Assembly (NCBI RefSeq): GCF_016469035.1
Contig: NZ_JAEHJZ010000029.1
Location: forward strand, 1-64,000
Length of the DNA: 64,000 bases
Direction of reading: 5' to 3'
DNA from: Gelidibacter salicanalis
GTDB lineage: Bacteria; Bacteroidota; Bacteroidia; Flavobacteriales; Flavobacteriaceae
This document shows, in pieces, positions 36,108 through 52,309 of this stretch. The notes beneath the pieces were generated by a model, which saw only the letters and a program-made list of their open reading frames with translations, made no database searches and had not been told where the DNA came from. The position numbers were made by a program, and so were the translations under genes. Every line of letters begins with the position of its first letter. The stretch's first letter is position 1.

Positions 36108-36149
36108 ATTGGTTAATTGATTTAAGTACTACTTCCTAAATAAAAAAAG

Positions 36150-36173: not shown

Positions 36174-36210
36174 TTAGAAAATTTATATTTTTTTTGAATA
36201 AAACCCGCGG

Positions 36211-37089
36211 TTAACGTATCACCAACAATGGCATTTTTCGGTTTCTAATCAACAAATCATTGGTTACACTTCCCACAAATAAGGATGTGATAGTGTTGGC
36301 TCCACGAGCAGAGGTGACAATGATATCAAAGTCGCCTTTTTCAGCATGAATTTCAATAGCCTCTACTACGGATAAGCTTCGTCTATCAATATATTTAAAT
36401 GGTATGTCCTCTCTGAGTTTATATTTCTTTCGGAATTGAGCAACCTTTTCCTTCAAATGAAGTTTCGTTTTATCGATCGCTTTGTCTGTGTTGATGTACG
36501 GAAAGAAGAATGAAGGAATATTATAGACATGTAAAGCTTCAACTTTTCCTCCTGAACGTTCTACCAAACTATCTGCCACTTCAAAACATTTTGTAGAAGC
36601 TGAACTAAAATCGGTTGGGATGAGCACATGATCCATTCCGTGTCTCGCTTCCTCAGGCACTAACAGTACGTTAGCATCCAACATACGCACCAATTTTTGA
36701 GATAAGGCACCTGTACCTTGTAATTCATCCTTATTACCCGTAACCATAATGTCAATTTTATACTCTTTGGCAAGATGGCTGAGAATACTTTCAGTATAAT
36801 CATCAGAAGTAATAATTACTGTAAACGGAACCGCTGCTGTATAATGGTCTTCTACGGTTTTATTCAATGCTCTATCTACTATATCTTCAACAGTAATGCC
36901 TTCTTCCAAAAAGTCATCATACAAATCATATAATTTATAGTGTTTGATGTTATGGGTAAAGTACAAATGTTCAACATTCCAAACCTTACATAAAAAGCTG
37001 ACATATTTCAACAGAATAGGATCCATTGCCGTAAGGTCGAGAGCTACCATCACATTCAACTCGTTCTCTAATTTAATTTTCTTTGTCAT
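36211..37089 (-). CDS. Two-domain universal stress protein
   Basis: The 292-residue protein has two Usp domains. The first (about 10-145) begins NVMVALDLTAMD and has IMVTGNKDELQGTG. The second (about 148-292) begins HVLIPTDFSSAS and keeps the nucleotide-binding pattern VTSARGANTITSLFVGSVTN, close to the family's G-x2-G-x9-G-S/T. Tandem Usp proteins of this kind are common next to transporters. It lies 45 bp downstream of the BCCT transporter gene on the same strand, so the two are probably one transcript. Confidence 0.88.
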   Translation of the reverse strand: MTKKIKLENELNVMVALDLTAMDPILLKYVSFLCKVWNVEHLYFTHNIKHYKLYDLYDDFLEEGITVEDIVDRALNKTVEDHYTAAVPFTVIITSDDYTESILSHLAKEYKIDIMVTGNKDELQGTGALSQKLVRMLDANVLLVPEEARHGMDHVLIPTDFSSASTKCFEVADSLVERSGGKVEALHVYNIPSFFFPYINTDKAIDKTKLHLKEKVAQFRKKYKLREDIPFKYIDRRSLSVVEAIEIHAEKGDFDIIVTSARGANTITSLFVGSVTNDLLIRNRKMPLLVIR

Positions 37090-37134
37090 GTCTTAACTTT
37101 ACTTTTATGAGGACTATGTTCTTTTAGAATCAAT

Positions 37135-38808: not shown

Positions 38809-39004
38809 ATAAAAAATGGGTTATTTAAAAATGACTAAGTATGCTTCAAAAAACATATAAATGAACTTATCAGTTTCCATAGAAATGGGCTATGATAAAT
38901 TAGCGAAGCCCATTATACTATAATAGAACTGTCTTTACAAACTTTTGGACAATTGTTTTTTTCCATGTTGATAATTATAATTTTATCCGCAATACATGTG
39001 TCGC

Positions 39005-39035
39005 TTGCCTAAATTAGATAGAATTACTATATTTT
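39005..39035 (+). promoter_or_regulatory. Candidate promoter of the Crp/Fnr gene
   Basis: TTG at 39005-39007 and TATATTTT at 39028-39035 are 20 bp apart, close to the Bacteroidota -33/-7 pattern (TTTG and TAnnTTTG). The regulator ATG follows 46 bp later. Confidence 0.4.
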
Positions 39036-39080
39036 TACATTTTACAGTGAAAATTTTAAGCAGATAAAACCACCCAAGAC

Positions 39081-39713
39081 ATGATAAATGATTTAAAGAA
39101 AAGTTATGGACACTTATTTGAGGACGCTTTACTCGATGAAATTGTTGAAGTTGGCACCTATAAAGAAATTCCAGAAGGTTTTAAAATGATGGAGATAGGC
39201 GAATATGTCAAATCTATGCCCTTGCTCATTTCTGGTGCCATTAAAGTGTTACGGGAAGACAGTGAGGGTGACGAACTCCTTCTTTACTATCTTGAAAGAG
39301 GCGAAACCTGCTCTCTGACCATGACCTGTTGTTTGGGTCAAAAAAAGAGTGAGATCAGAGCTATTGCAGAAACGGATGCCACACTCATCATGATTCCCGT
39401 AGCTAAAATGGAAGAATGGACCGCAAAATATAAGTCTTGGCGGAATTTCGTTTTTGAAAGTTATCACAATAGAATCAACGAATTATTGACCACTTTAGAC
39501 AGTATTGCATTTTATCAAATGGACGAACGATTGGTGAAATATTTAAAAGAAAAAGTAAGAGTCAATGACAGTAACATCATCAAAAGCACCCATCAAGAAA
39601 TTGCTTATGATCTTTATACGTCTCGTGTAGTCATCTCCCGACTTTTGAAAAAACTGGAACAGCTCGGCAAGATTGAACTCAACCGAAATGTCATCAAAAT
39701 TATAAGCTTATAA
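39081..39713 (+). CDS. Crp/Fnr family transcriptional regulator
   Basis: The 210-residue protein has a cNMP-binding-type beta-roll (about 15-120: EIPEGFKMMEIGEYVKSMPLL, then LLYYLERGETCSL) and a C-terminal winged helix with STHQEIAYDLYTSRVVISRL near residue 170. The recognition helix reads TSRVVISRLL. Two adjacent cysteines and one nearby (GETCSLTMTCCLG, about 75-87) lie where ligand or redox sensing could occur; an N-terminal iron-sulfur cysteine cluster as in true FNR is absent. A perfect palindrome sits six bases after the stop codon. A redox- or sulfur-responsive role is inferred from the neighbours. Confidence 0.9.
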   Translation: MINDLKKSYGHLFEDALLDEIVEVGTYKEIPEGFKMMEIGEYVKSMPLLISGAIKVLREDSEGDELLLYYLERGETCSLTMTCCLGQKKSEIRAIAETDATLIMIPVAKMEEWTAKYKSWRNFVFESYHNRINELLTTLDSIAFYQMDERLVKYLKEKVRVNDSNIIKSTHQEIAYDLYTSRVVISRLLKKLEQLGKIELNRNVIKIISL

Positions 39714-39718
39714 CCAAT

Positions 39719-39732
39719 GTAACCTAGGTTAC
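39719..39732. promoter_or_regulatory. Palindrome GTAACCTAGGTTAC, probable Crp/Fnr operator
   Basis: This perfect 14-bp palindrome begins five bases past the regulator's stop codon and about 83 bp before the decayed HMA gene. Its half-sites GTAAC/GTTAC recur with the same spacing at 49887-49900, upstream of the minus-strand sulfur operon. Crp/Fnr proteins bind such symmetric sites, so it is the best candidate operator. Confidence 0.65.
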
Positions 39733-39814
39733 TGCAAAATGCAATAACAGGTCTTATTTTTGCAGATCATCTTTTAAACACTACATCACGTTTAAATAGT
39801 TTAGAATACACAGC

Positions 39815-40032
39815 ATGACAAACACCTCAATAGTAGTACAAAATTTAAAATATGGCGGTCACGTATGTAGAAGAACATAAGGTTTCTTTTGATTATCTTG
39901 ATGACGCTGATGCTATTGTTGTCAGAGAAAGATTAAAAGATCTTGGTTACCCTTTCGGTTGAAGATTCCAATTCCTTAACTTCAAAAGCAAAATCTTTTG
40001 TGAGTTGTGCCACGGGTAAGCTATCACAATAA
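39815..40032 (+). pseudogene. Decayed heavy-metal-associated (HMA) domain protein gene
   Basis: The frame opens MTNTSIVVQNLKYGGH, the usual start of flavobacterial HMA-domain proteins. The segment with the metal-binding CxxC and first helix is missing. In another phase the rest continues VEEHKVSFDYLDDADAIVV, then RLKDLGYPF. One more base change of phase leads to VEDSNSLTSKAKSFVSCATG, then KLSQ and a stop. So the gene suffered an internal deletion and a one-base frameshift near 39959. It lies between the Crp/Fnr regulator and the haem lipoprotein. In relatives such a protein would bind copper or a similar metal. Confidence 0.82.
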
Positions 40033-40045
40033 AATAAATCGAATT

Positions 40046-40687
40046 ATGAAAAAAGCTGTTTTAATTGTTACCGTATCTGTCTCATTTTTTAGCTGTAATC
40101 AAGAAAAAAAGACAAACTATATTTCTGTAGAAAATAGACTAGAGAAAAAGACGGTCCCGGAAAAAGTCCAAACAACTTTAGCCGCTGACACAATCTCATA
40201 TGCTGACCGTGGCTTACAATATGCGCTAAATACGCAAGCCGTTTTAGGTAAAAATTTAATGACGGCAATTCAAAACAGTGGAACCTTAGGAGCGCTCTCC
40301 TTTTGTAATGAAAAAGCCTATCCACTGACGGATAGTATGGCGGTTTTACAGAACGCAGACCTCAAGCGTGTGACTGACAAACCCAGAAATCCGGCCAATC
40401 AGGCTAATACTACTGAATTGGAGCACGTTGAAACGTTTAAACAGGTTATTGCAAACAAGGAGCTCCCAAACCCTATTGTAGAAGATATAGATGGCAAAGT
40501 AAAAGTCTATTATCCTATTCTTACCAATCAAATGTGCTTACAATGCCACGGAAAGCCAAACAAAAATATTGAACCTTCAACACTTTCTAAATTAACCATA
40601 CTCTACCCTGAAGACAAGGCAATTGGATATGGACTGAATGAAGTGAGAGGCATTTGGAGTGTTACTTTTGCTAAAACCAAACGATAA
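40046..40687 (+). CDS. DUF3365 haem lipoprotein (one CxxCH)
   Basis: The ATG at 40046 (MKKAVLIVTVSVSFFSC) gives 213 residues with a lipoprotein signal and lipid-bearing C17. The domain is DUF3365 (Tll0287-like), a PAS-like haem-binding fold. It has LSFCNEKAYPL near residue 85, RNPANQANTTELEHVETF near 114 and a single c-type haem site CLQCH at 164-168. It should sit on the periplasmic side and carry one covalent haem, as an electron carrier or a redox/gas sensor. It is the first intact gene after the Crp/Fnr regulator. A longer frame starting at 40007 would overlap the HMA remnant and is less likely. Confidence 0.88.
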   Translation: MKKAVLIVTVSVSFFSCNQEKKTNYISVENRLEKKTVPEKVQTTLAADTISYADRGLQYALNTQAVLGKNLMTAIQNSGTLGALSFCNEKAYPLTDSMAVLQNADLKRVTDKPRNPANQANTTELEHVETFKQVIANKELPNPIVEDIDGKVKVYYPILTNQMCLQCHGKPNKNIEPSTLSKLTILYPEDKAIGYGLNEVRGIWSVTFAKTKR

Positions 40688-40705
40688 GACTAAAATTAAG
40701 CATCA

Positions 40706-40962
40706 GCTTTTAAATCATGAGCGTTTGGTAAAACAAGTAAAAAGTTTACAAAGCTAATTAAAGTAAGACCTGGTAAGAGATATTAAAAATGGTACCTTGC
40801 TTTTTGAAACCAATTTTACTTAGAGTGATTGGGCAAATTTAATTTAGAATAACGATTGTTTATCAGTCAGTTAAATTCAAATCTCTGTTCTTTTTCCGAT
40901 AGCTATCGGGACTATAAGCGCAGCGATCTTTATTCTTTATCGGACAATAATGCTTTTAAATA
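40706..40962. repeat. Dispersed repeat, copy B
   Basis: This copy matches 34537-34789 and ends ten bases before the TPMT-like ATG. It contains the perfect palindrome CCGATAGCTATCGG near 40900. The minus-strand coding remnant seen in copy A is here interrupted by several stops. It separates the haem lipoprotein from the methyltransferase genes and may carry their promoter. Confidence 0.85.
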
Positions 40963-40972
40963 TATAATTACA

Positions 40973-41557
40973 ATGACTTTAACAGAAAATTTCTGGGATA
41001 CTCGCTATATAAACAATGATATTGGGTGGGATATGGGTGAAGTTTCTCCACCGCTTAAAGCGTATGTTGATCAGTTGACCGATAAGGATTTGAAGATTCT
41101 AATTCCAGGTAGTGGTAATTCTTACGAAGCAGAATATTTACACCATAAGGGGTTTAAAAATGTATATGTGGTAGACCTTTCCAAAACCGCACTGAACAAT
41201 CTCAAACAACGCGTGCCGTCATTCCCTTCTGAACATTTACTTCACCAAAATTTTTTCGATTTAAAACAGTCTTTTGATTTGATTATCGAACAAACTTTTT
41301 TCTGCGCTATAGATCCTAAATTAAGAATTTCGTATGTTTCCAAAGCTGCTGAACTTCTCAATAAAAACGGCAAAATAGCAGGCTTGCTTTTTGATGCACC
41401 TTTAAATACTGACACACCTCCTTTTGGAGGGCATAAAGCCGAATATCTCAACTGTTTTGAACCACATTTTAATATGTTGACAATGGAACCAGCACACAAT
41501 TCCCATCCTTCAAGACAGGGCAAAGAATTATTTGTAAACGTCCAAAAGAAAAATTGA
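40973..41557 (+). CDS. TPMT-family thiol S-methyltransferase-like protein
   Basis: I start at the ATG at 40973 (MTLTENFWDTRYINND), giving 194 residues, because the longer frame runs into the repeat. The SAM-binding motif I reads ILIPGSGNSYEAEYL near residue 40 and motif post I VYVVDLSKTAL near 62. The FFDLKQSFDLIIEQTFFCAI segment near 95 and FDAPLNTDTPPFGGH near 135 are characteristic of the thiopurine S-methyltransferase family (PF05724). Family members methylate thiols, thiopurines, sulfide, selenium and tellurium compounds. It leads a same-strand group including a persulfide dioxygenase, so a sulfur or selenium substrate is likely, but unproven. Confidence 0.88.
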   Translation: MTLTENFWDTRYINNDIGWDMGEVSPPLKAYVDQLTDKDLKILIPGSGNSYEAEYLHHKGFKNVYVVDLSKTALNNLKQRVPSFPSEHLLHQNFFDLKQSFDLIIEQTFFCAIDPKLRISYVSKAAELLNKNGKIAGLLFDAPLNTDTPPFGGHKAEYLNCFEPHFNMLTMEPAHNSHPSRQGKELFVNVQKKN

Positions 41558-41611
41558 GATGGCTTTTAGGATTTATATAGATATTTAGAAAGCACTACTA
41601 ACAATAATTAG

Positions 41612-42223
41612 ATGACTACAAAAGACCATTGGGAAACCATATACGAAAATAAGACTCCTGATCAAGTGAGTTGGACTCAAGATAGACCCACCGTCTCCTT
41701 GCAGTTGATCCAGGATAGAGATCTACCAAAAACAGCCAAAATTATTGACATAGGTGGCGGCGACAGCAAACTTGTGGATTATCTAATTGAAGAAGGGTAT
41801 ACGGACATTACTGTACTGGATATTTCTGCCAATGCCATCGAAAAAGCAAAATTACGGTTGGGCGAAAAGGCAAAACATGTGCAATGGATTGTAAGTGATA
41901 TCACGACTTTTAAACCGACAGTGTTATACGACTTATGGCATGATCGGGCAGCGTTTCATTTTTTGACTACCCAGAAGCACATACAAGCTTACGTGGCACT
42001 GACCAACTCCTTTGTGAACAACAGTTTGATTATCGGAACCTTTTCAAAACAAGGACCTGAAAAATGCAGCGGATTGAAAATTACCCAATATGATGCCGAA
42101 GGCTTAACAAACGTGTTCGGTAAGCATTTCCAAAAAATTGAATGCCTGACTACAGATCACATCACTCCTTTTGACACCGTACAAAATTTTCAGTTTTGTT
42201 GTTTTAAAAACAAGACCAATTAA
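41612..42223 (+). CDS. Class I SAM-dependent methyltransferase
   Basis: The 203-residue protein begins DHWETIYENKTPDQVSW, a start common to small flavobacterial methyltransferases. Motif I is KIIDIGGGDSKLVDYL near residue 44, motif II VLDISANAIEKAK near 70, and YDLWHDRAAFHFLTT near 112 gives the WHDRA signature. The segment GTFSKQGPEKCSGL near 151 holds a conserved cysteine of this group. Enzymes with this layout are usually annotated as generic or thiol methyltransferases. It is 54 bp downstream of the TPMT-like gene and 53 bp upstream of the persulfide dioxygenase. Confidence 0.85.
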   Translation: MTTKDHWETIYENKTPDQVSWTQDRPTVSLQLIQDRDLPKTAKIIDIGGGDSKLVDYLIEEGYTDITVLDISANAIEKAKLRLGEKAKHVQWIVSDITTFKPTVLYDLWHDRAAFHFLTTQKHIQAYVALTNSFVNNSLIIGTFSKQGPEKCSGLKITQYDAEGLTNVFGKHFQKIECLTTDHITPFDTVQNFQFCCFKNKTN

Positions 42224-42276
42224 AAATTATTAATAACCCAGGGTCAATTACAGGACCTCATAAAAAACATGACACT

Positions 42277-43608
42277 ATGACTATTAAACAATTTGAATAC
42301 AAACCCCTCTCCCATTACTCGTACGCCATTGTAAGTGAAGGCAAAATAGCGGTTATAGACCCCGAGCGTGATCCACAACAGTATTACGACTACGCAAAAG
42401 CCAATAACGCGACCATTGTTGCCATACTGGAAACCCATCCACACGCTGATTTTGTGAGCTCTCATCTTGAACTGCATAAAGAAACCGGAGCGACCATCTA
42501 TAACAGTGAAAAATTAGGTGCTGATTATCCGCACCAACCCTTTGATGATGGCGACAGCATAGCACTAGGAAACATCACTATAAAAGCCTTAAACACACCC
42601 GGACACTCTCCAGACAGTATTACAATTGTGGCTACAGAAGGTGACAAAACAGCTTTGTTTACAGGCGACACACTGTTTATTGGCGATGTTGGCCGTCCCG
42701 ACCTTAGGGAGAAATCCGGTAAGATGAAGGCCAAACGTGAAGAACTGGCTGAAATGATGTACGATACCGTAAACACAAAGTTTAAGGATTTACCAGATAA
42801 CGCTATTGTGTATCCTGCACACGGTGCGGGTTCACTATGTGGAAAGAATTTGAGCGAGGCCGCCAGCAGCACTTTAGGCGATGAGCGAAAATTTAATTGG
42901 GCATTTAAGAAACAAACCAAAGAAGAATTTATTGAGTCCTTATTGGATGGGCAACCGTTTATCCCCGCCTATTTTGGTTATAATGTAGACATTAACAAAG
43001 AGGGTGCTGATAATTTAGAGCCTTCGATTGCAGAAATTCCATTTGCTAAAAAGACTACTGCTTCAGGACTCATCATTGATATGAGAACTGAAGAAACCTT
43101 CAAAAAAGGCCATTTAAAGGGAAGTTTCAATATTCAGGCAGCATCTGATATTGATAAATTTGAAACTTGGTTAGGTGCCATTGTGAAGCCAAAAGAAACA
43201 TTTACTCTGGTTATTGACGCAAAGGAAAACAAGGATAAACTCTTAGATCGTTTGGCTAAGATTGGTTACGAAAAACAGGTCAAGCAAGTCATTACGCTAG
43301 CTGATGAAAACCTTGAGAAATCGGAACAATTGGATTTGGCCGATTTTAAAAAGAATCCTGATAATTATACGATTGTAGATGTTCGTAATACAAGTGAGAT
43401 TGATGAAGGCAAGTTTTTTGAAAACGCTTTAGCACATCCACTGCACGAGTTACGACATACCGCCGAGAATATTCCAACAGAGAAACCTATTGTAGTCCAT
43501 TGTGCTGGGGGCTACCGTAGTGCAGCAGGAAGTAGTATCCTGGAAAGCGAATTAAAAGGCGCCACCATTTACGATTTGAGTGATGACATAGAACAATTTA
43601 AAAATTGA
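42277..43608 (+). CDS. Persulfide dioxygenase-rhodanese fusion protein
   Basis: The 443-residue protein starts with a metallo-beta-lactamase fold of the ETHE1/persulfide dioxygenase type. It has ETHPHADFVSSH at 52-63 (H54, H56, D58), NTPGHSPDSI with H near 109, FTGDTLFIGDVGRPDL near 130 and PAHGAGS near 174. ETHE1-type enzymes oxidise glutathione persulfide to sulfite in the cytoplasm. Two rhodanese domains follow. The first (about 262-350) has lost its cysteine (DAKENKD in the active loop). The second carries the active C409 in VHCAGGYRSAAG. This fusion is typical of bacterial sulfide/persulfide detoxification. The next gene overlaps its stop codon. Confidence 0.93.
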   Translation: MTIKQFEYKPLSHYSYAIVSEGKIAVIDPERDPQQYYDYAKANNATIVAILETHPHADFVSSHLELHKETGATIYNSEKLGADYPHQPFDDGDSIALGNITIKALNTPGHSPDSITIVATEGDKTALFTGDTLFIGDVGRPDLREKSGKMKAKREELAEMMYDTVNTKFKDLPDNAIVYPAHGAGSLCGKNLSEAASSTLGDERKFNWAFKKQTKEEFIESLLDGQPFIPAYFGYNVDINKEGADNLEPSIAEIPFAKKTTASGLIIDMRTEETFKKGHLKGSFNIQAASDIDKFETWLGAIVKPKETFTLVIDAKENKDKLLDRLAKIGYEKQVKQVITLADENLEKSEQLDLADFKKNPDNYTIVDVRNTSEIDEGKFFENALAHPLHELRHTAENIPTEKPIVVHCAGGYRSAAGSSILESELKGATIYDLSDDIEQFKN

Positions 43609-44054
43609 GCCTAAAAACACCGATAAAGGATTATGGTTTTGTAGTAGGGCAACTACTGCTTTTTTTGGCCTATGTTGTACCTTTGCAACTATATAAAATA
43701 CAACTACCCGAATGGCTATGCTATTCGGGTTTGTTTATTTTGGGAGTTTTTGTTCTGTTTGGAATAGTGGCGCTCTTACAATTAAACACGAAGCTCTCCC
43801 CGTTTCCATCACCCGTTGCATCTGGCAAGTTGATTACCAATGGCGCATTCCGTATGTCCCGGCATCCCATTTATACGGCTTTGCTCTTTTCGGGGTTTGG
43901 ATATGCTCTTTATGTCTCATCGCTTTATAAAGTGCTGATCACAGGAATTCTTCTCCTTTTATTCTATTATAAATCCGTTTATGAGGAGATCTTATTGATC
44001 CAAAAATATCCAGATTATTACAATTATAAACAAAGAACACGTCGCTTTATTTAA
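43605..44054 (+). CDS. Membrane methyltransferase (ICMT/PEMT-like)
   Basis: The 149-residue protein has a TTG start overlapping the stop of the dioxygenase gene (TTGA at 43605-43608), which implies translational coupling. Four membrane helices are predicted. The ICMT-like SAM-binding region is visible: GKLITNGAFRMSRHPIYTALL near residue 74 (signature SRHPIY), then YYKSVYEEILLIQKYPDYYNYK near 120. The family covers isoprenylcysteine carboxyl methyltransferase relatives, including MddA-type enzymes that methylate methanethiol and sulfide. Given its coupling to a persulfide dioxygenase, a sulfur substrate fits best, but this is inference. Confidence 0.82.
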   Translation: MSLKTPIKDYGFVVGQLLLFLAYVVPLQLYKIQLPEWLCYSGLFILGVFVLFGIVALLQLNTKLSPFPSPVASGKLITNGAFRMSRHPIYTALLFSGFGYALYVSSLYKVLITGILLLLFYYKSVYEEILLIQKYPDYYNYKQRTRRFI

Positions 44055-44059
44055 ACCTT

Positions 44060-44665
44060 ATGAAAGAATCAAAGAACAATTTTTGGAACCAACGTTACGA
44101 TGCTGAAGATTACGTGTATGGTACCTCACCAAACGATTTCTTTAAAGAGCAGCTGACCAAAATCAACAAAGGAGACCTTCTATTGCCAGCAGAAGGAGAA
44201 GGAAGGAATGCCCTATATGCTGCAAAACAAGGCTGGAATGTTATGGCTTTTGATAGTAGTGAAAGCGGTAAACAAAAGGCCTTAAAACTGGCCTCAGAGC
44301 ACAAGGTAGCGTTCAACTACGAAGTGAAAGACGTGTTGTCTTTTAAGACGAATGAACGATTTGATGTTCTAGGCTTGATTTATGCCCATTTTCCGAAGGA
44401 TATCCGTAAATCGGCCAATCAGTATTTGCTACAATTTTTAAAGCCCAATGGAACGGTCATTTTTGAAGCCTTCGCAAAAGAACAATTAGCAAATGCTTCA
44501 GGCGGGCCAAAAAATTTGGATATGTTATTTTCAATTGAAGACATACAAAATGAGTTTTCTGGATTGGAATTTGAGTTATTGCAACAACAAACCATCCAAC
44601 TAAACGAAGGCGAACACCATAAAGGTAAAGCGGAGGTGATTCGCTTTGTAGGCAGGAAGAAATAA
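44060..44665 (+). CDS. TehB-like SAM-dependent methyltransferase
   Basis: The 201-residue soluble protein begins FWNQRYDAEDYVYGTSPNDF, a start shared by TehB-type (tellurite resistance) methyltransferases. Motif I is DLLLPAEGEGRNALYAAKQG near residue 40, followed by VMAFDSSESGKQKAL and YAHFPKDIRKSANQY near 114, and GTVIFEAFAKEQ. The group S- or Te-methylates chalcogen compounds or acts more broadly. It lies 5 bp behind the membrane methyltransferase, closing the plus-strand group, and converges on the SoxB-like gene with 28 bp between stops. Confidence 0.87.
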   Translation: MKESKNNFWNQRYDAEDYVYGTSPNDFFKEQLTKINKGDLLLPAEGEGRNALYAAKQGWNVMAFDSSESGKQKALKLASEHKVAFNYEVKDVLSFKTNERFDVLGLIYAHFPKDIRKSANQYLLQFLKPNGTVIFEAFAKEQLANASGGPKNLDMLFSIEDIQNEFSGLEFELLQQQTIQLNEGEHHKGKAEVIRFVGRKK

Positions 44666-44693
44666 TTACAATAGAGGCAATGGTTCAATAATA

Positions 44694-46121
44694 CTAAACC
44701 AAACGAAAACTGTCAATTCTATCCGGACTGAAATCTCGATACTCTTTTAAGTAAGCTTTCATCGCAGCCACGGCTTTTTGATCATGAGCTTTCCGATTCT
44801 TACCGTATTTTTTGGACACCCCTTGTGTAGTTACAAAGCTTACTGTATACGACTTGGTCATATCAAGATGTGCTCCGTTGTAAAAAATCTCTTGAATCCG
44901 ATGCCCATTAGGGTTTTCAATCCGCATGTTAATTTGCAGTCCTAAAACCCGTTTGACATAGCCACCCATTTGCCCGAACGGATCCTTGCAAAACGTCCGT
45001 TCCAAATTTTCTTCTAACATTTGCTTGATTTCTGCACCAGTCAACACAACGGTAGACACTGGTGGATTCATTGGCGTGATATTGTAGAGATCATTCTCTG
45101 TAATGTCTCCTATTCCAATTGGCGCTCCATAACGCCATCCGTTGGAAAATGCAATCTCCGTGTTAGTAGCATGAGCGATGGCCTTCAACAGAAAATTATC
45201 CATGGTGGAGTTGATGGTATTGTACCGATGTAAAACAGTATCTGTACGACCTAACACCACCGTTCTTATAGCTTTATAAGGCTCCAGAGCCTTCTCTACC
45301 AAAATCTCTACGGCAGCACTTTTAGGAATTGAACTGTCAATTTTTATAAGTTCATAATTGGAATTTTTAATTTTATTCTCTTTAATCTCAAGACTGAATT
45401 TGCCCATAAATGCACCATGGCAACCACATTGAACAATCTGTGCGCCGTTGATCTCTATAGGGCTGTAAATTCGGTTGTGGGTATGTGCACTCAAACAAAT
45501 GTCAATACCCTCTACTTGTTTTAAAAGTTCCACATCTTGAGGAAATCCGTTATGAGAAAGCAACACAATTACATCTGCGCCATCTGATTTTAGTTGTTGG
45601 ACATATTTTGGAACCTCCTCAACACCAGATGTAAATTTGAGCCCCCCACCCATCTTCTCGGGCATGACCTTATCTACAATCATCGCACAAACACCGATCA
45701 CGCCTATTTTAACGCCTTCTTTTTCATAGAGTGCTGTAGGTTGCAAAAAATTGGAGCCATTCTCTTTGTACACATTGCAACCCAAAATTGGAAACTTCAA
45801 TTGGTTGTTAATCTGCTGTAGTTGTTCGGGTCCATAACCAAAATCCCAATGGCCAACCCAGGCATCGGGTTGTAGTGCATTTAAAATTGGAATAATGGCT
45901 TCTCCCTTTGAATCAACCAAGGGTTTGGTGCCATGTAAGGTATCACCACCATCAAATAAAAGCGTATTCGGGTTTTCTTTTCTAATAGTTTCCACCAATC
46001 CTGCAATATGGGCGTACCCGCCCGCCGTTTGTACCACTTCGCCCGATGCGTCGTAAAACAATTCCGAATGTGGCGCTAAGTAACCGTGGACGTCGTTTAT
46101 GAATAAGATGTTCAGTTTCAT
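44694..46121 (-). CDS. SoxB-like metallophosphatase/5'-nucleotidase family protein (no signal)
   Basis: The ATG at 46119-46121 (MKLNILFINDVHGYL) gives 475 residues and no signal peptide. The metallophosphatase domain shows INDVHGYL, FDGGDTLHG near residue 58, VGHWDFGYG near 84 where a W replaces the histidine of the common GNHE motif, LLSHNGFPQD near 189 and SAHTHNRI near 207. The C-terminal nucleotidase-like domain has SNGWRYGAPIG and KDPFGQMGGYVKRVLG. The GHW variant and the QMGG block recall SoxB, the thiosulfohydrolase of the Sox pathway, more than ordinary UshA. A SoxB is normally periplasmic, so absence of an export signal is odd. It is the last gene of the minus-strand group. Confidence 0.82.
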   Translation of the reverse strand: MKLNILFINDVHGYLAPHSELFYDASGEVVQTAGGYAHIAGLVETIRKENPNTLLFDGGDTLHGTKPLVDSKGEAIIPILNALQPDAWVGHWDFGYGPEQLQQINNQLKFPILGCNVYKENGSNFLQPTALYEKEGVKIGVIGVCAMIVDKVMPEKMGGGLKFTSGVEEVPKYVQQLKSDGADVIVLLSHNGFPQDVELLKQVEGIDICLSAHTHNRIYSPIEINGAQIVQCGCHGAFMGKFSLEIKENKIKNSNYELIKIDSSIPKSAAVEILVEKALEPYKAIRTVVLGRTDTVLHRYNTINSTMDNFLLKAIAHATNTEIAFSNGWRYGAPIGIGDITENDLYNITPMNPPVSTVVLTGAEIKQMLEENLERTFCKDPFGQMGGYVKRVLGLQINMRIENPNGHRIQEIFYNGAHLDMTKSYTVSFVTTQGVSKKYGKNRKAHDQKAVAAMKAYLKEYRDFSPDRIDSFRLV

Positions 46122-46224
46122 ACCTTTAATGTGTTTCTTACTTGTAAGTTCCAATAAATTTGTGATGATTCCTAAAAGGGATAATACTCTGATTTGAATT
46201 TATCATCCCTTTTTAGAATGTATG

Positions 46225-46860
46225 CTATTTCAAACTCTTTAAAAAGTCTTTGAACTCTGAGTTGCTATAATCTGCCATGCCTTTATGGGTCAATGCCAAG
46301 TTACCTGCAGCATCAATCACATAAGTAGTCGGAATTGCCGAGGATTGGTACATTGGTGGCAAGTTACTCGCCGGGGCATAAATTGGCAGATTGTAACCTT
46401 TGCGTTTGTCAAAGGCTTTGGCCAATTCAAAATCCTGATCCAAGGACAGAATTACAAAAGCCACCTCATCACCCATCTCTTCGTGTAATTTATCGATGCT
46501 TGGCATTTCTGCAATACACGGTGGACACCAAGTGGCCCAAAAGTTCATAAAAATAACCTTGCCTTTCAAATCTGCAAGAGATGTGATGTTTCCGTCCCTA
46601 TCCATTAATTTAAGACTAAAATCAGCTTTAGTTGCTGCTGGTAAAGTTGTAGCCTCACTACTGGAATTATCTGCATGTCGCACTTCAGTTATGTCCTTGA
46701 CATCAGGATTCATCAATCCGGTGGCCAATAGTCCGCGTTGCGCAAAACCAATCACTTCTGTATGTAAGCCTGTTGCATAAAGCGCAATGGCTATAACGGC
46801 AAAAATGCCGTATTGAATCCAAGTTCTCTTCGCGTTTTTATCGTTCTTATCTTTTTTCAT
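46225..46860 (-). CDS. TlpA-like thioredoxin-fold reductase
   Basis: The 211-residue protein has one N-terminal membrane anchor (about 14-33, WIQYGIFAVIAIALYATG) and a periplasmic TlpA/ResA-type domain. The active site WATWCPPC lies near residue 112, followed by the cis-proline segment SSAIPTTYVIDAAGNL near 168. Such proteins keep cysteines or haem sites reduced, or pass electrons to exported sulfur enzymes. It sits between the two SoxB-like genes, 12 bp after the first, which suggests it services them or the haem lipoprotein. Confidence 0.9.
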   Translation of the reverse strand: MKKDKNDKNAKRTWIQYGIFAVIAIALYATGLHTEVIGFAQRGLLATGLMNPDVKDITEVRHADNSSSEATTLPAATKADFSLKLMDRDGNITSLADLKGKVIFMNFWATWCPPCIAEMPSIDKLHEEMGDEVAFVILSLDQDFELAKAFDKRKGYNLPIYAPASNLPPMYQSSAIPTTYVIDAAGNLALTHKGMADYSNSEFKDFLKSLK

Positions 46861-46872
46861 ATGATTTATTTT

Positions 46873-48531
46873 TTATTCAAATTTATATGCCGACCCGGGT
46901 ACGGTTGAAAACGAATACGTGCCTAAATATTCACAGTACGCTCTCCCTTCTAATGTTGGTGATACTGGCGAATTTTTCTGAAGGTACTCTTCTACAGCCT
47001 CATGAATCGTGTAATCCTTTACCTCTACATCCTTAACGTTAGGCATCCTACATAAATTATCGAGTGGATCACCAGGACGCACACAGGCAGAAACCGTGTA
47101 ATAGTCATCATCCTTCATTTCTTCACCTTTAACGATGACACTGGAAATTCGGTGCCCTCTCTCGTTTTGACTGCTAAAACTGACTTTCATTCCTGAAAAT
47201 CGCACTAACCAGCCCCCAAAACGTTCCGTTGGATTCTGAGAAAACGCATTGTGCATTTCTTTTTCCAACCAATCCTTAATCTGTTTCCCTGTAGCTCTTC
47301 CGGTTTTTACAGGTTCATTCACTGGCAGTAAATTCCATAGATTAGCTCTTGTGATTGCCGCGGGATTGCCGTCTTCAGGCACAATCGGGTTCCCAAATCT
47401 AAATCCGTTGGAAATGGCGATATCCGCACCTGTTTTCCAACGCGCGGCATCGGTAATCATATTGTCCATTGGGTTTTCAACCGTTAAATATCTATAAATT
47501 GGTGTGCTTGTATGGCCGACCACCGTTTCCAAATAGTCTTTATAGGGCGCTTTTTCTTCGTCAATTAAGGCTTGTAAGGTTTCATCGGCTTTATAAACTT
47601 CAGGATCGACATCCATCAATTCATAATCATCACCGACTAATTTACCGTCAACAAAATGTAAGGTTAACTTCCCTACAAAGGAACCGAAGGCACCGGGCTC
47701 CGTAACTTTAGCATATTTCCCTACGATTAATTCGCGGACGCGCTCATGCGTATCGTTACCCAATATATAATCGACATTTTCAGCAATAGGATTACTGGCC
47801 AGCTCCACTTGTTTAAAAATCCCGATATGCGTCACCAAAAAGAGCACATTAACCTCCTCATTGATTTTAAAGGCGTCGATCATGGTTTTCAAGTCAGCAT
47901 CCAATCCGCTAAAGCCAATCCCTTCACTAAAAATAGGATTTTGTCGCACAGGTACATCAGGATCATTAATGCCAACAAAGCCAATACGCACACCTTCAAT
48001 TTCTTTCACCCAAGAGGCTGGAAATAGTGGTTCTTCGTTAGCTTCGTGATACATGTTTTGAACGATAACTTCTGTCCCGTAGTCTTGCATTACATTCATC
48101 ATAATGTCTTTGCCGTAAACCACTTCCCAATTACCGGGTATAATGACATCATACCCCATATTCTTAATAATATTGGGCATCACTTTCCCTTCAGATAAGG
48201 CGGTATAGCCACTCCCCTGAATTAAATCCCCTCCATCCACAATAATAGTGCGGTTAGGATTTTTTTGCCGTTCTTGGTCGAAAAGCGTTTTAATATTTGC
48301 CAGTCCGCCCCTATTTTTAAAGACGACTTGATCATTCTCCCAAAATAATTCAGGATGTGTATCCAACTGTCCGTGAATATCGGCTGTTTGCAGGATGGTA
48401 ATGCTCAAGGTGTCCTTCGCTATTACATTACTTGCCACTGCGTTGGAGGCTTCCGTTTTACAAGCTACTGTTACCATTAGTATTACAATAAGTGCCGCCG
48501 ATTTCAATAGTGTTTTTTTAAATGTTTTCAT
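46873..48531 (-). CDS. SoxB-like metallophosphatase lipoprotein
   Basis: The 552-residue protein has a lipoprotein signal (lipobox VTVAC, C24) and so acts in the periplasm. Metallophosphatase motifs are LQTADIHGQL, VDGGDLIQGSG near residue 100, PGNWEVVYGKD near 137, LVTHIGIFKQ and GNDTHERV near 262. The nucleotidase-like domain has SNGFRFGNPI and NAFSQNPTERFGGWLVRFSG. GNWE replaces GNHE, as in SoxB-type relatives. It resembles its smaller neighbour at 44694 throughout, so the two are paralogues. It lies 2 bp behind the DsrE gene. Thiosulfohydrolase, nucleotidase or polysulfide-related activity cannot be decided here. Confidence 0.85.
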   Translation of the reverse strand: MKTFKKTLLKSAALIVILMVTVACKTEASNAVASNVIAKDTLSITILQTADIHGQLDTHPELFWENDQVVFKNRGGLANIKTLFDQERQKNPNRTIIVDGGDLIQGSGYTALSEGKVMPNIIKNMGYDVIIPGNWEVVYGKDIMMNVMQDYGTEVIVQNMYHEANEEPLFPASWVKEIEGVRIGFVGINDPDVPVRQNPIFSEGIGFSGLDADLKTMIDAFKINEEVNVLFLVTHIGIFKQVELASNPIAENVDYILGNDTHERVRELIVGKYAKVTEPGAFGSFVGKLTLHFVDGKLVGDDYELMDVDPEVYKADETLQALIDEEKAPYKDYLETVVGHTSTPIYRYLTVENPMDNMITDAARWKTGADIAISNGFRFGNPIVPEDGNPAAITRANLWNLLPVNEPVKTGRATGKQIKDWLEKEMHNAFSQNPTERFGGWLVRFSGMKVSFSSQNERGHRISSVIVKGEEMKDDDYYTVSACVRPGDPLDNLCRMPNVKDVEVKDYTIHEAVEEYLQKNSPVSPTLEGRAYCEYLGTYSFSTVPGSAYKFE

Positions 48532-48533
48532 AA

Positions 48534-48956
48534 TTAGAGACTAAGGCTTTTATATCCCTTCTTCTGGAGTTGGAAATTATACAGAATACCATTTTCTACG
48601 GTGGTCATTTTACTTGGGACCTTGGTTTTATCAACTTTAAATTTATTCAGCGAAAAACCACAGGCTACTAATTGTACCCCTGCTTTTTCAGCCTTTTCAA
48701 TAAAGGTATTGATCTTTTCAGGATCAGTAATATCACCTATTTCCTTCCCACATATAATGACTTGAAAATCGCCAAATGCATCGCATTCTTCAGCTTTTAG
48801 CGCCTCAGCCGTTAAAATAATGGGTTGTAATTGTGCTACCTTTTTGGTAAGTACCACGTAGTTATTTTTGCCGTTTGTAACATCTTGTGCAGTCATATGA
48901 TTTGTTGTAACTAATGTGAGTATAAAAAATAGGGAACTAAAAATGTATGTTTTCAT
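48534..48956 (-). CDS. Exported DsrE family protein
   Basis: The 140-residue protein begins with a signal peptide ending near MTAQ. The remainder is a DsrE/DsrF-like fold: NYVVLTKKVAQLQPIILTAE, FGDFQVIICGKEIGDI, and the candidate catalytic C99 in VQLVACGFSLNKF. DsrE-like proteins carry sulfur as cysteine persulfide between enzymes. Periplasmic versions are known in Bacteroidota. It lies 6 bp after DoxX and 2 bp before the SoxB-like lipoprotein, so it is probably the sulfur carrier of this operon. Confidence 0.88.
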   Translation of the reverse strand: MKTYIFSSLFFILTLVTTNHMTAQDVTNGKNNYVVLTKKVAQLQPIILTAEALKAEECDAFGDFQVIICGKEIGDITDPEKINTFIEKAEKAGVQLVACGFSLNKFKVDKTKVPSKMTTVENGILYNFQLQKKGYKSLSL

Positions 48957-48962
48957 AAGTAT

Positions 48963-49361
48963 TTATTTTAAAAGTTTATCAGTGTCGTTCAGTATAAAAA
49001 AAAGAAGTCCACCTAAAATTGCAATGTTTTTAAATAAAGGGCCGAGTGTTGTGATCTGTCCCACTTGAACCGTTAAAGAGATGGGAATTAAAATAGCCAT
49101 CAAAATGATTGCCGCCCATTTGGTTTTATATCCTATAAGGAATAAAAATCCGGCGCCCAGCATGGCAATACCTGACAGAATGATAAGCCATTGCGGTTCG
49201 CCAAAAAAATGTGCGATGCCTTTAAAGCTTGCCTGCTCTATGCGTTGTGCCGTTTTTTCTACGTGTATCAGGTGATTAAACCCTGCGACCAGAAATATGC
49301 CGCTGACCATAATGCGTAATACCTGTATAGAACGGCGACTGATTGAAATGTGTGTCGACAT
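48963..49361 (-). CDS. DoxX family membrane protein
   Basis: The 132-residue protein has four membrane helices in the DoxX arrangement: VLRIMVSGIFLVAGFNHL, then WLIILSGIAMLGAGFLFLIG and a basic turn KTKWAAI. DoxX/DoxD proteins are linked to thiosulfate:quinone oxidoreductase and to redox stress in several lineages. It lies 6 bp before the DsrE gene and 121 bp after the small membrane protein gene. A role in passing electrons from sulfur oxidation to the quinone pool is inferred from context. Confidence 0.87.
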   Translation of the reverse strand: MSTHISISRRSIQVLRIMVSGIFLVAGFNHLIHVEKTAQRIEQASFKGIAHFFGEPQWLIILSGIAMLGAGFLFLIGYKTKWAAIILMAILIPISLTVQVGQITTLGPLFKNIAILGGLLFFILNDTDKLLK

Positions 49362-49482
49362 TAATTGAATGTATAAAAGAGATTGATGGATGTGGCGTGT
49401 AGGTATTATAGTTTATTTCAGTGTATTTTGAAATAAGAAAATGACGGGAGTACACACCCAATAAGATTTCAGAGATAAGAAA

Positions 49483-49863
49483 TTATGCCCAGCGTGGTGG
49501 TGGAGAAACGCTTTCTAAATAGCGATAATTTAATTTTGAAGGCAGATGATCATCCAACACTCTTATGTGATCTGAATGATTGATATGCCATGATAGCAAT
49601 TCTAAATGAAACGATGTTGTACACTGTCCACTTAAGCTTAACATCTCTTTGGAACTATCTTGATCCTGATCTGAGAAATTTTGTTTTTTTGAACTGGAAT
49701 CTGAGTCAACATGCTTTTTACAAAACGGATTTACAAAGGTGATATCATTACCACTCAACAATGTGTTAAGTGCGTGTGCATCTATGGCAACAAATTTTGC
49801 CATAAATATAAATGTTAAGAGGAGCGCTATGTAAGTTTTAGGTTTCAAAGATCTTACAAACAT
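49483..49863 (-). CDS. Small exported protein with C-terminal SPPPRWA
   Basis: The 126-residue protein has one hydrophobic leader (about 11-30), a cysteine in FVNPFCKKHV, a serine-rich middle and the ending LESVSPPPRWA. Small proteins with a similar SPPPRA-like tail are frequent in Flavobacteriaceae, often beside metal-handling or outer-membrane genes. I do not recognise a characterised family. It is the first gene of the minus-strand sulfur operon, and the GTAACCTTTGTTAC palindrome lies 24 bp before its start. Confidence 0.65.
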   Translation of the reverse strand: MFVRSLKPKTYIALLLTFIFMAKFVAIDAHALNTLLSGNDITFVNPFCKKHVDSDSSSKKQNFSDQDQDSSKEMLSLSGQCTTSFHLELLSWHINHSDHIRVLDDHLPSKLNYRYLESVSPPPRWA

Positions 49864-49886
49864 AGGGGAAACAAACCCGTTTTTAT

Positions 49887-49900
49887 GTAACCTTTGTTAC
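49887..49900 (-). promoter_or_regulatory. GTAACCTTTGTTAC, probable Crp/Fnr operator
   Basis: The half-sites GTAAC and GTTAC are separated by four bases, exactly as in the palindrome behind the Crp/Fnr gene at 39719. The site is 24-37 bp upstream of the first start codon of the minus-strand operon, so regulation by the Crp/Fnr protein encoded 10 kb away is likely. Confidence 0.65.
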
Positions 49901-49981
49901 TCAGGTCTGTTAAAGTCGTATTAAAAAACATGTTTCGTTTGAGTCTTACGCACTAAAATATCACACTAAAATTTCAGAGTC

Positions 49982-52006
49982 CTATTGCGGATAAATGACC
50001 ATTTTACTCATATGTGGAAAAGACCTTTCAAGTCGTTGCGGAATTTTGTCCAATTGCCCGAAATGGGAAATATAACCGCGTCTTGATGATACCAAGATAA
50101 TGATATCCGTATCTCCTATATTTTCAGTGAGCTTCATAAAATGATCCCAATCATTAAAATGTGAATAATTTAGATTTAGGGTCACCTTATGCTCTTTTGA
50201 AAATTTCAAGATGGCTTGGTGCGTTTCTGCAGTACTATGTAGTTCTATAGGAACGGATAGCTCAATAGATAATTTTGCTATTTTATGTAACCAAATCGCA
50301 AAACCCTCTTCAAACTCAGCATTTGGAGGAATGATCAAGATTAATTTTTTATGATTGACCAGCGGTATTTGAAAATCGCAGATAAAGAGGGTTTTCTCAG
50401 TATTTTGTAAAATACTTTCCATTTTATCCCCTATTAACTTCTCCAAAAACCCTGTTTTTTGCGGCCAACCCAATAAAATGATATCGGCCATAATCTCTTT
50501 AGCTGCTCGCGAAATACCGCTGGCCGCATTAAAATCGATAGTTGCCATAATAGTCGCATTGGTATCAGAAGCAGTGGCTTCATTGATATAATTTTCCAAG
50601 CCTTCCTTAGCTTTAATTATGGTTTTTTCAGCCTCCTTGGTATTAGGAACTACCGTCAATATAGACAAAGGGTTGTTTGACTTTTTCTCTTTTATTAGAA
50701 CTGCAAAGTCGAGCACCTTATCAATATTCACCAAATTAGCAATTGGGATAAGTATGTTTTCCTTATTAGCTCTGTAAGACAAATGCAGACTTTCTTCGTC
50801 ATCCACGTTTCGAATGATCAATTTAGCAGCACTTTCCGTCGCAAAGGATGCAATGACGCAGGTAACTAGTATGAGAATAACAGTACCATTTAAAATATTG
50901 GCATCCAAGATCCCCGCTTTATAACCTACTAAAATCACCGCCAAGGTCGCTGCAGCATGAGCACTACTTAACCCGAAAATTAATTTGCGTTGCCCTCTAG
51001 AGAATCTAAAAATGATTTGGGTGATCCATGCCGCCATCCATTTTCCGAAAATAGCCACAAAGGTTAAGGTTCCGGCAATAATCAAGGCCATAGGTCCGCT
51101 TAAAATGACGCTGACGTCTACGATCATTCCCACACTAATTAGAAAAAACGGAATGAACAGTGAGTTTCCTATAAATCCAATACGATTCATCAAGGCTGAA
51201 GAATGTGGAATAAGTTTATTAAGCGCCAAACCAGCAACGAAGGCTCCAATAATCGATTCAAGACCAGCCAATTCTGCCAAAAACGCCGAGAAAAACACGA
51301 CAGACAATACAAAAATATAATGCGAATGTTTTTCACTCTCCAATTTCCTAAAAAACCATTTTGCGATTTTCGGGATGACTAAGAACATAAACGCCGAAAA
51401 CAACACTAGGGAGATTCCCAAACGCATCCAGAAGTCGATGGTCAATCCGCCTTGGTGAGACCCCAAAATCACAGCCAACAAAACCAATACCGCAGTATCT
51501 GTTAAAATAGTGCCCCCAACGGTTACCGCAACCGCTATATTTTTAGAAAGTCCTAATTTGCTCACTATTGGATAAGTTACTAAAGTGTGGGTGGCAAACA
51601 TGCTCGAGGTGAGCAAACTGGCGTTAAAATCAAAGCCCAGAATATAATAACAAACGGGAAATCCAATACTTATCGGAATGGTAAAGGTTAGAAAGCCGAA
51701 TAAGAGACTCTTATTCCGGTTAGCTTTAAATTCGTTAAGATCCAATTCCAACCCCGCAATAAACATAATATAGAGTAATCCAATGGTCGAAAACACGTCT
51801 ACAAACAGACTCTTTTCTAAAATGTTCAACCCTGCAGGACCGATAATAATTCCAGAAACAATCAATCCTATAATTCCAGGAATGCGTATTCTGTGAAGCA
51901 CTATGGGTGCTAACAGAATGATAAAAAGAATCAATGAGAAAATCAACACCGGATTATGGAGTGGCAACTGAAATTCTTCTATAAGTTGATTAATGATGGT
52001 ATCCAT
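49982..52006 (-). CDS. CPA2 cation:proton antiporter with Usp-like C-terminal domain
   Basis: I start at the ATG at 52004-52006 (MDTIINQLIEEFQLP), giving 674 residues. About 12 membrane helices form a Na+(K+)/H+ exchanger of the KefB/CPA2 type: RIPGIIGLIVSGIIIGPAGL near residue 38, ELDLNEFKANR near 87, and the GGTILTDTAVLVLLAVILG segment near 161 with the transport-site acidic residue. After the membrane part (about 400 on), two Usp-like alpha/beta domains follow (IADIILLGWPQKTG, DTDIIILVSSRRGY), as in several flavobacterial antiporters. A role in pH or potassium control is general for the family. It ends 118 bp from the sulfur operon's first gene. Confidence 0.9.
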   Translation of the reverse strand: MDTIINQLIEEFQLPLHNPVLIFSLILFIILLAPIVLHRIRIPGIIGLIVSGIIIGPAGLNILEKSLFVDVFSTIGLLYIMFIAGLELDLNEFKANRNKSLLFGFLTFTIPISIGFPVCYYILGFDFNASLLTSSMFATHTLVTYPIVSKLGLSKNIAVAVTVGGTILTDTAVLVLLAVILGSHQGGLTIDFWMRLGISLVLFSAFMFLVIPKIAKWFFRKLESEKHSHYIFVLSVVFFSAFLAELAGLESIIGAFVAGLALNKLIPHSSALMNRIGFIGNSLFIPFFLISVGMIVDVSVILSGPMALIIAGTLTFVAIFGKWMAAWITQIIFRFSRGQRKLIFGLSSAHAAATLAVILVGYKAGILDANILNGTVILILVTCVIASFATESAAKLIIRNVDDEESLHLSYRANKENILIPIANLVNIDKVLDFAVLIKEKKSNNPLSILTVVPNTKEAEKTIIKAKEGLENYINEATASDTNATIMATIDFNAASGISRAAKEIMADIILLGWPQKTGFLEKLIGDKMESILQNTEKTLFICDFQIPLVNHKKLILIIPPNAEFEEGFAIWLHKIAKLSIELSVPIELHSTAETHQAILKFSKEHKVTLNLNYSHFNDWDHFMKLTENIGDTDIIILVSSRRGYISHFGQLDKIPQRLERSFPHMSKMVIYPQ

Positions 52007-52272
52007 AGTGTCTCTAAAGCTTAAAGGATTACACTGCAACAGTTGCTAAACCAATGCAAAGTGGAAAATTATCTAGCAAACATAATAAAAAGATTGGCAC
52101 ACTTATTTAACAATTACAAGGTGTGACGTTAAATTTTTAAATAATATCTACTCATTTTTAAAATACATCAGTCAAAAAGATAATCAGCTTTTTGGTAAAT
52201 CCTCCAAAACCTGCAATTATATACTAAATGCTAGATAGTTACAAAATACTAAAATCATAAGATTATTTTTTG

Positions 52273-52296: not shown

Positions 52297-52309
52297 ACTT
52301 GTTAGTTAA

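Follow-up and report, generated by a model that had tools for sequence, protein, structure and literature searches.

Why should a Crp/Fnr-family regulator, a persulfide dioxygenase, several methyltransferases and two relatives of SoxB stand together in one block of a flavobacterial genome? The block in question spans positions 39081 to 49863 of a 64,000-nucleotide stretch of Gelidibacter salicanalis (contig NZ_JAEHJZ010000029.1), the whole of which we call the window. Its plus arm, read from 39081, comprises the regulator gene crp, a remnant of an HMA-like gene, a Tll0287-like lipoprotein, the methyltransferases mt1 and mt2, a CstB-like enzyme, and the methyltransferases icmt and mt3. Its minus arm, read from 49863, comprises a small exported protein (sp), DoxX, a DsrE-fold protein, SoxB2, TlpA and SoxB1. 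We read the block as one regulon for reduced and sulfane sulfur, in which a CstB-type cytosolic arm is paired with a Sox-like envelope arm and an exported DsrE protein may replace SoxYZ (rough probability, 0.6). The shared sulfur regulon is well supported by comparative sequence analysis, since the same box heads both arms, the regulator's recognition helix and this box co-vary, the linkage is conserved, and SoxYZ was not found; the chemistry of the island is what we infer from these data.

The first-pass annotation of this DNA had placed the regulator between two convergent operons. The two arms do converge, meeting tail to tail at 44665/44694, but crp lies outermost in the plus arm, at its 5' end, and thus not between the operons. 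The genes that the annotation had named are present near the positions given and belong to the families assigned, subject to five corrections: the position of crp, the label of the dioxygenase (CstB-like), the export of SoxB1, and the scores of both SoxB-like proteins and of DsrE, which stay below the model cutoffs.

One genome-contig scan retrieved 122 SoxB2 relatives, of which the best 80 were kept; these are the 80 loci referred to throughout, and their record titles carry 43 genus labels, including a few synonyms. Among these best 80 of 122, the closest named relatives were G. sediminis (91%) and an uncultured Gelidibacter (90%). Neighboring genes were counted by tblastn at 25% identity or more. 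The core neighbors of SoxB2 were DsrE (71/80), DoxX (66/80), TlpA (51/80) and a gene combining metallo-beta-lactamase (MBL) and rhodanese domains (48/80, or 38/80 at ≥40% identity), which lay within about 10 kilobases (kb) of SoxB2 and, in 44 of the 48 cases, on the opposite strand. The gene for sp was found in 58 of the 80 loci and crp in 20. Other recurring neighbors were TauE (n = 27), YeeE (n = 19), CydA of cytochrome bd (n = 18), DUF6691 (n = 17), single rhodaneses (n = 17), peroxiredoxin (n = 16), SoxA/TsdA-type cytochromes (n = 9) and SQR (n = 7). In 56 of the 80 loci, one or more sulfur markers were present in addition to the SoxB/DsrE/DoxX/TlpA core. The first-pass reading had been staked on the co-occurrence of both arms in relatives, and this is borne out by the MBL-rhodanese gene near SoxB2 and by the recurrence of TauE, YeeE, SQR and rhodanese. 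The genes next outside the island served as a control; cpa2, tetR and tolC were found in only 8, 7 and 7 loci, respectively, and synteny of the wider region was therefore rejected as the cause of the linkage. A weaker control, bcct and usp, gave three loci each, near the edge of the fetched stretch.

The same block in its exact make-up, which the first-pass annotation had proposed to look for, did not recur in any of the five other Gelidibacter islands compared. In two of these (L165 and L166), the plus arm contains TauE, a second dioxygenase and a thioredoxin in addition to crp. In the remaining three (L022, L023 and L117), crp is not at the corresponding place, and SoxB1 occurs in L023 and L117 only; L117, from genome G013, may be conspecific with L022 or L023. 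The methyltransferase mt3 was found in none of the five. Within the family the distribution is patchy, with 11 of 149 genomes, that of G. salicanalis included, matching SoxB1 at an E value of 1e-30 or better (one of them, G007, by way of a protein with a GNHD-type site). Farther afield, Pontibacter akesuensis plasmid Paks1 (L161) carries SoxB2, SoxB1, a nucleotidase-like gene, a c-type cytochrome, DsrE, TlpA and DoxX, together with YeeE, DUF6691, rhodaneses, an MBL enzyme, TauE and Crp; no methyltransferase was found in its annotated stretch. Paks1 is typed as mobilizable and holds a relaxase and a TraG-family gene. Because a near-complete set resides on this plasmid, the sulfur gene set can probably move between hosts.

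The palindrome GTAAC-N4-GTTAC occurs exactly twice in the window, once at the head of each arm (Table 1); the plus-arm copy lies about 80 base pairs (bp) before the broken HMA remnant. Across the 80 loci, which total 1.60 megabases (Mb), we found 178 exact sites in 70 loci. By comparison, 59 permuted half-sites gave a mean of 1.36 sites and a maximum of 11, and spacers of 3, 5 and 6 gave 0, 2 and 0 sites, respectively; an effect of composition in the islands was rejected on these grounds. Of 61 copies of sp, 52 have the palindrome within the 250 bp before the gene, as do 22 of 27 TauE genes and 15 of 19 YeeE genes. For the most part, the sites fall no more than 130 bp ahead of sp, TauE or the dioxygenase gene, which for YeeE holds only in part; others were attributed to CydA, peroxiredoxin, SQR, rhodanese and further labeled genes. 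The ten loci without this box belong to Pontibacter (n = 6), Cesiribacter, Litoribacter, Confluentibacter and Geofilum. Elsewhere in the G. salicanalis genome, one copy of the box precedes by 98 bp a second CstB-like gene, which has TauE and YeeE in its vicinity (contig C144); another precedes by 88 bp an additional exported DsrE-like gene (C673:52229), and a third stands between two unrelated-looking genes (C662). A further copy, 822 bp past the window end (C209:64822; L217), precedes a TolC/HlyD-type operon by 46 bp.

The regulator varies together with its presumed site. At least one homologue of the window Crp was found in 9/9 genomes in a first test and in 27/28 loci in a second. Its recognition helix reads SREV in Pontibacter, Cesiribacter and Litoribacter and SRVV in most others. 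In eight Pontibacter and Cesiribacter stretches, the commonest palindrome was GTGAC-N4-GTCAC, with 12 sites against a mean of 0.39 for permuted orders; in the other loci (1.46 Mb) it occurred three times, twice in L050 and once in Litoribacter. The GTGAC sites precede rhodanese, SoxB2, SoxA/TsdA and dioxygenase genes, as well as cytochrome, rhodanese and TauE genes on Paks1; three precede unlabeled genes or are shared with one. A regulator was found in 56 islands among 83 stretches (the 80 loci, L117, L161 and the window). The GTAAC box was present in 46/47 valine-type (SRVV) and 1/9 glutamate-type (SREV) islands (Fisher P = 5.6e-8, kinship ignored), and the GTGAC box in 6/9 glutamate-type and 1/47 valine-type islands (P = 1.7e-5, likewise). 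Box and recognition helix thus co-vary. Among the exceptions, Confluentibacter L051 is valine-type with no site in its 13.5-kb stretch, Maribacter L050 has both boxes, and Pontibacter L094 and Cesiribacter L099 are glutamate-type with neither box in the island. Two Marivirga loci combine the valine-type helix with GTAAC although Marivirga presumably belongs to the Cytophagales, so the split does not simply follow order. The SRVV/SREV switch, paired with A or G at one box position, fits the specificity rule of Glu181 in Escherichia coli CRP and looks like a clean, natural co-change of regulator and site.

Two cysteines of the regulator are also conserved, Cys77 in 61/61 and Cys83 in 58/61 copies, and both have counterparts in 3dv8, a solved protein of the Crp/Fnr family. 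Our guess is that the protein senses sulfane sulfur or redox state through two to three conserved cysteines, in a region corresponding by alignment to the CRP pocket for cAMP. The G. salicanalis genome holds no second copy at an E value of 1e-30. In genome G013 (L170), a second CstB-like set sits with a crp homologue; the only close crp of G. salicanalis is that in the window.

The first-pass annotation had also described the island as lacking SoxAX and SoxYZ. For SoxYZ this extends to whole genomes. The SoxZ and SoxY searches covered the genomes of 50 of the 80 loci plus that of G. salicanalis, with two control genomes added for SoxY and for SoxA/TsdA. SoxZ was found in 0/51 genomes holding SoxB2. 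Because the first 14 control genomes were silent too, 296 genomes of the phylum were run as a further control, of which 35 were positive. SoxY gave 0/51 above the cutoff, with one sub-threshold piece containing an inner stop, while both control genomes were positive. SoxYZ encoded elsewhere in the genome was rejected accordingly. For SoxAX, the claim holds in the window. In whole genomes, a SoxA/TsdA-type domain occurs in 15/51, SoxA and TsdA not being told apart, and G. salicanalis encodes such a dihaem cytochrome outside the window.

Both SoxB-like proteins are matched best by the NCBIfam SoxB model (TIGR04486), at 328.7 bits for SoxB1 and 245.8 bits for SoxB2, which is about twice and 1.7 times the score of the next model, respectively. 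SoxB1 carries the SoxB active-site motifs (Table 1). SoxB2 departs from them: the tryptophan is kept, asparagine replaces the SoxB histidine, and aspartate replaces one histidine of the HxH motif. This variant site reads GNWE in 80/80 loci and NDTHE in 79/80 (GSDTHE in L084), while five SoxB reference rows read GHWE or SHWE. In both island proteins, the histidine of the nucleotidase GNHE motif is a tryptophan. Of the solved SoxB structures, 2wdc has the matching tryptophan and the SoxB-SoxYZ complex 4uwq has a cysteine, which we take to be an engineered change. In a 53-row tree, SoxB1, SoxB2 and the five references form one group (100/97) with the nucleotidases outside, and SoxB1 and SoxB2 pair as sisters (96/83) next to the reference rows. 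Plain nucleotidases were rejected for both proteins by motifs and tree. The tree omits 11 short or distant rows and samples 18 of 81 SoxB2 rows, supplemented by a few rows of other loci. Because two nucleotidase rows (L137x0 and L138x0) contain the letters GNWE by themselves, the SoxB2 label requires two changes. Three of the references come from SoxZ-holding genomes of the phylum, possibly Chlorobia, where 3/7 such stretches gave a SoxB match, and the other two from plasmids of Paracoccus pantotrophus and Indioceanicola profundi, in stretches that carry no annotation. SoxB relatives of yet another, third type, whose GNHD site is nucleotidase-like (L161:13568-15088 and L019), branch just outside the SoxB group (93/89) and may bear on the origin of SoxB from nucleotidases.

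Of the SoxB-like pair, only SoxB2, which the first-pass annotation had called a lipoprotein, is an exported lipoprotein. Its N terminus is of that type, with Cys24 in at least 90% of 41 aligned rows. A signal peptide was not seen in SoxB1, as judged by eye rather than with a predictor; five of seven full-length relatives start right before the first metal motif, and the other two have an inner methionine there. Relatives favor the ATG at 46121 as its start, with a TTG at 46154 possible. A cysteine pair of SoxB2, Cys483/Cys494, is retained in 41/41 rows and is a possible target of TlpA.

The DsrE-fold protein is sub-threshold in Pfam (18.6 bits against a cutoff of 25). Its predicted structure (predicted local distance difference test score, 88.2) matches the DsrE/DsrF-like entries 3mc3, 2qs7 and 3pnx; the top three PDB matches were a designed cage and two proteins of unassigned function. 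Cys99 is invariant in 53/53 aligned rows, the N terminus is that of an exported protein, and the gene lies directly before SoxB2 in most loci. An exported protein with a DsrE fold and a conserved cysteine is, on these features, the best candidate for the missing carrier. The second exported DsrE-like gene of G. salicanalis lies on another contig (C673; L216:6324-6764). The small exported protein sp has two invariant cysteines and an invariant PPP near its C terminus.

CstB combines an MBL domain with two rhodanese domains, of which only the last contains a cysteine. The island dioxygenase, which the first-pass annotation had correctly described as a dioxygenase-rhodanese and labeled ETHE1-type, has the CstB architecture instead: within 443 amino acids it holds an MBL domain and two rhodanese stretches. 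Its only cysteines are at positions 188 and 409, and Cys409, in the last rhodanese stretch, is kept in 98% of 58 aligned rows. The best solved matches, aligned over nearly the full length, are 3tp9 and 3r2u, the latter presumably CstB itself. A second CstB-like gene of G. salicanalis (contig C144; L167) has TauE, DUF6691 and YeeE alongside. For mt1, the nearest solved relatives are thiol and halide methyltransferases.

The features of the island are collected in Table 1. An open copy of the HMA-type gene, broken in the window, lies nearby in relatives. No Rfam family was matched in 36000-53000, and no terminator-like site was seen where we looked for one between the convergent operons.

Table 1. 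Predicted features of the island, with position in the window, strand and basis of assignment
Feature	Position	Strand	Basis or remarks
crp: Crp/Fnr-family regulator, predicted island regulator	39081..39713	+	Helix SRVVISRLL; Cys77/Cys83/Cys84
Box GTAACCTAGGTTAC, directly 3' of crp, heading the rest of the plus arm	39719..39732		GTAAC-N4-GTTAC pattern search
Remnant of small HMA-like (CGGC) gene, broken	39815..40029	+	Matches spread over three reading frames
Tll0287-like lipoprotein, one CxxCH haem motif	40046..40687	+	Domain match, alignment
mt1: TPMT-family methyltransferase	40967..41557	+	Domain match; best solved relatives thiol/halide methyltransferases
mt2: soluble S-adenosylmethionine (SAM) methyltransferase	41612..42223	+	Domain match
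CstB-like MBL protein (persulfide dioxygenase type), two rhodanese stretches, Cys409 in the last	42277..43608	+	Domains, solved-structure matches
icmt: small membrane methyltransferase, ICMT/PEMT type	43605..44054	+	Domain matches
mt3: soluble methyltransferase	44060..44665	+	Weak TehB/TPMT similarity
SoxB1: SoxB-type enzyme, predicted cytosolic	44694..46121	-	Motifs GHWD, SHNG, HTH; no signal peptide seen
TlpA/ResA-type thioredoxin, WCPPC	46225..46860	-	Domain match; N-terminal membrane anchor by eye
SoxB2: lipoprotein SoxB relative, variant site GNWE + NDTHE	46873..48531	-	Motifs; conserved Cys483/Cys494 pair
Exported DsrE-fold protein, one invariant cysteine, Cys99	48534..48956	-	Predicted structure, alignment
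DoxX-family membrane protein	48963..49361	-	Domain match
sp: small exported protein, invariant Cys48, Cys81, Pro121-123	49483..49863	-	Alignment; without family match
Box GTAACAAAGGTTAC, centered 30 bp upstream of the minus arm	49887..49900	minus-strand sequence	GTAAC-N4-GTTAC pattern search

How might these parts work together? In the cytosol, the CstB-like enzyme would turn low-molecular-weight persulfides into thiosulfate or sulfite, an expectation drawn from the Staphylococcus aureus system as set out in the accessible part of PMC5480029. The methyltransferases would cap sulfide or thiols; for the Mdd enzymes, H2S methylation and a proposed detoxifying role are described in the accessible part of PMC12904073. 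SoxB1, lacking a signal, would hydrolyze S-sulfonates in the cytosol. In the envelope, the exported DsrE protein would carry sulfur on Cys99 in place of SoxYZ, and the lipoprotein SoxB2 would hydrolyze the DsrE-bound S-sulfonate to release sulfate. DoxX might pass electrons to the quinone pool and thereby supply oxidation, while TlpA would supply reduction and reset the cysteines. The Crp cysteine sensor would read GTAAC-N4-GTTAC and switch the island on. In its fullest form, the proposal is of a Sox-like route of thiosulfate or persulfide oxidation, widespread and mobile in Bacteroidota, with DsrE as carrier in place of SoxYZ, SoxB2 as a hydrolase with a new active-site variant, DoxX as the quinone link, a second, cytosolic SoxB and a cysteine sensor of the Crp/Fnr family; we put this forward tentatively, as possible rather than probable.

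Several observations weigh against a single sulfur regulon with a Sox-like envelope arm. Both SoxB-like proteins score under the TIGR04486 cutoff of 550 bits, and the chemistry of SoxB2 may differ or be lost, as asparagine and aspartate stand where SoxB has histidines. The case for DsrE as carrier is built from fold, export, one invariant cysteine and linkage, and 9/80 loci lack a DsrE match. In the fetched stretch, 24/80 loci show no additional sulfur marker, and the neighboring type of SQR was found in 14/51 genomes and is missing from 37/51, including that of G. salicanalis. As for the regulon, 51 gene assignments of the box are to unlabeled genes, the P values for covariation ignore kinship, and Cryomorpha L033 pairs an SREV regulator with GTAAC boxes. 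In the G. salicanalis genome, the box shows no enrichment (14 places against 22 for a reversed control pattern), and 8 of the 14 are inside long reading frames. Thus, the number of boxes is by itself meaningless in this genome, and only promoter placement carries weight.

The island might instead serve only Cst-type detoxification of sulfide and persulfides, with the SoxB/DsrE/DoxX/TlpA arm repairing or reducing sulfur-damaged envelope proteins and no thiosulfate being turned into sulfate. The CstB-like architecture, the TauE, YeeE and SQR genes near relatives of the island, the reductase type of TlpA and the absence of SoxAX beside the block in the window all agree with this, as does a partial match to the S. 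aureus tauE-cstA-cstB-sqr set (accessible part of PMC5480029). It leaves unexplained why there should be two SoxB relatives with the SoxB tryptophan and why a SoxA/TsdA-type cytochrome should occur near SoxB2 in 9/80 loci, and we consider it unlikely. An account that makes the SoxB-like proteins common scavenging enzymes, either 5'-nucleotidases or phosphoesterases, with an incidental link to sulfur genes, draws on the common superfamily and domains, on the annotation "5'-nucleotidase" in a Pontibacter record, and on a fold search that put a nucleotidase as the best match of SoxB2, a search unable to separate SoxB2 from nucleotidases. The margin of the SoxB model over the next one, the tryptophan in place of the GNHE histidine, the grouping of both proteins with true SoxB in the tree, the sulfur linkage and the shared box all argue otherwise, leaving this account very improbable. 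The chance that the island is centered on its methyltransferases and confers resistance to tellurite, selenite or thiol stress appears slighter still. The TPMT match, the weak TehB match and the thiol methyltransferases among the closest solved relatives of mt1 point that way, but the methyltransferases are the least conserved part of the block (mt1, 4/80 loci; mt2, 12/80; icmt, 18/80; mt3, 19/80), compared with 48 to 71 loci for DsrE, DoxX, TlpA and the dioxygenase.

If the reading of the block as one regulon for reduced and sulfane sulfur is correct, part of the Bacteroidota has an overlooked route for sulfide or thiosulfate, possibly a new way to deal with these toxic compounds by SoxB-like enzymes without their usual carrier. 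With the box, the regulon can be sought easily in any genome. In the literature searched on SoxB, Bacteroidota, DsrE, DoxX, TlpA and persulfide dioxygenase, which subscription papers lay mostly outside, we recognized no paper on SoxB-like proteins in this setting.

Among known systems, the island resembles the cst operon of S. aureus (tauE, cstR, cstA, cstB and sqr) in its CstB-like enzyme, in the linked TauE, in the SQR of some relatives, in a DsrE-type protein and in having a regulator. CstA of S. aureus likewise contains a DsrE-type domain. The island differs in that its regulator is of the Crp/Fnr family rather than a CsoR-like CstR, its DsrE protein is exported, and it adds the SoxB pair, DoxX and TlpA, in a genome without the neighboring type of SQR.

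The likeness to Sox (SoxXA, SoxYZ, SoxB and SoxCD, or its truncated form) lies in the SoxB relatives adjoining a TlpA-like thioredoxin, as is also seen beside SoxB in 3/7 SoxZ-bearing stretches (those with a SoxB match), in the SoxA/TsdA-type cytochromes near SoxB2, and in the two-part YeeE proteins nearby. The usual view is that SoxB acts on sulfur bound to SoxYZ. The Sox scheme in the accessible part of PMC11582611 is consistent with this, and the same survey demands SoxA, SoxB, SoxY and SoxZ in one cluster; by that criterion an island of this type would be missed. If our reading is right, taking soxB to indicate complete Sox oxidation could be misleading. Unlike Sox, the island has an exported DsrE protein, with SoxZ not found and SoxY not above the cutoff in the 51 genomes, and of its two SoxB proteins one lacks a signal peptide and the other has a variant active site.

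The Mdd system, with membrane-bound MddA and soluble MddH, is similar in its small membrane and soluble methyltransferases beside sulfide genes, a comparison made by description rather than by sequence; mt1 of the island, by contrast, belongs to the TPMT family. Finally, the window Crp can be aligned with both NtcA and CRP, and its box fits the consensus GTA-N8-TAC. It differs from both in that the region of the effector pocket carries cysteines.

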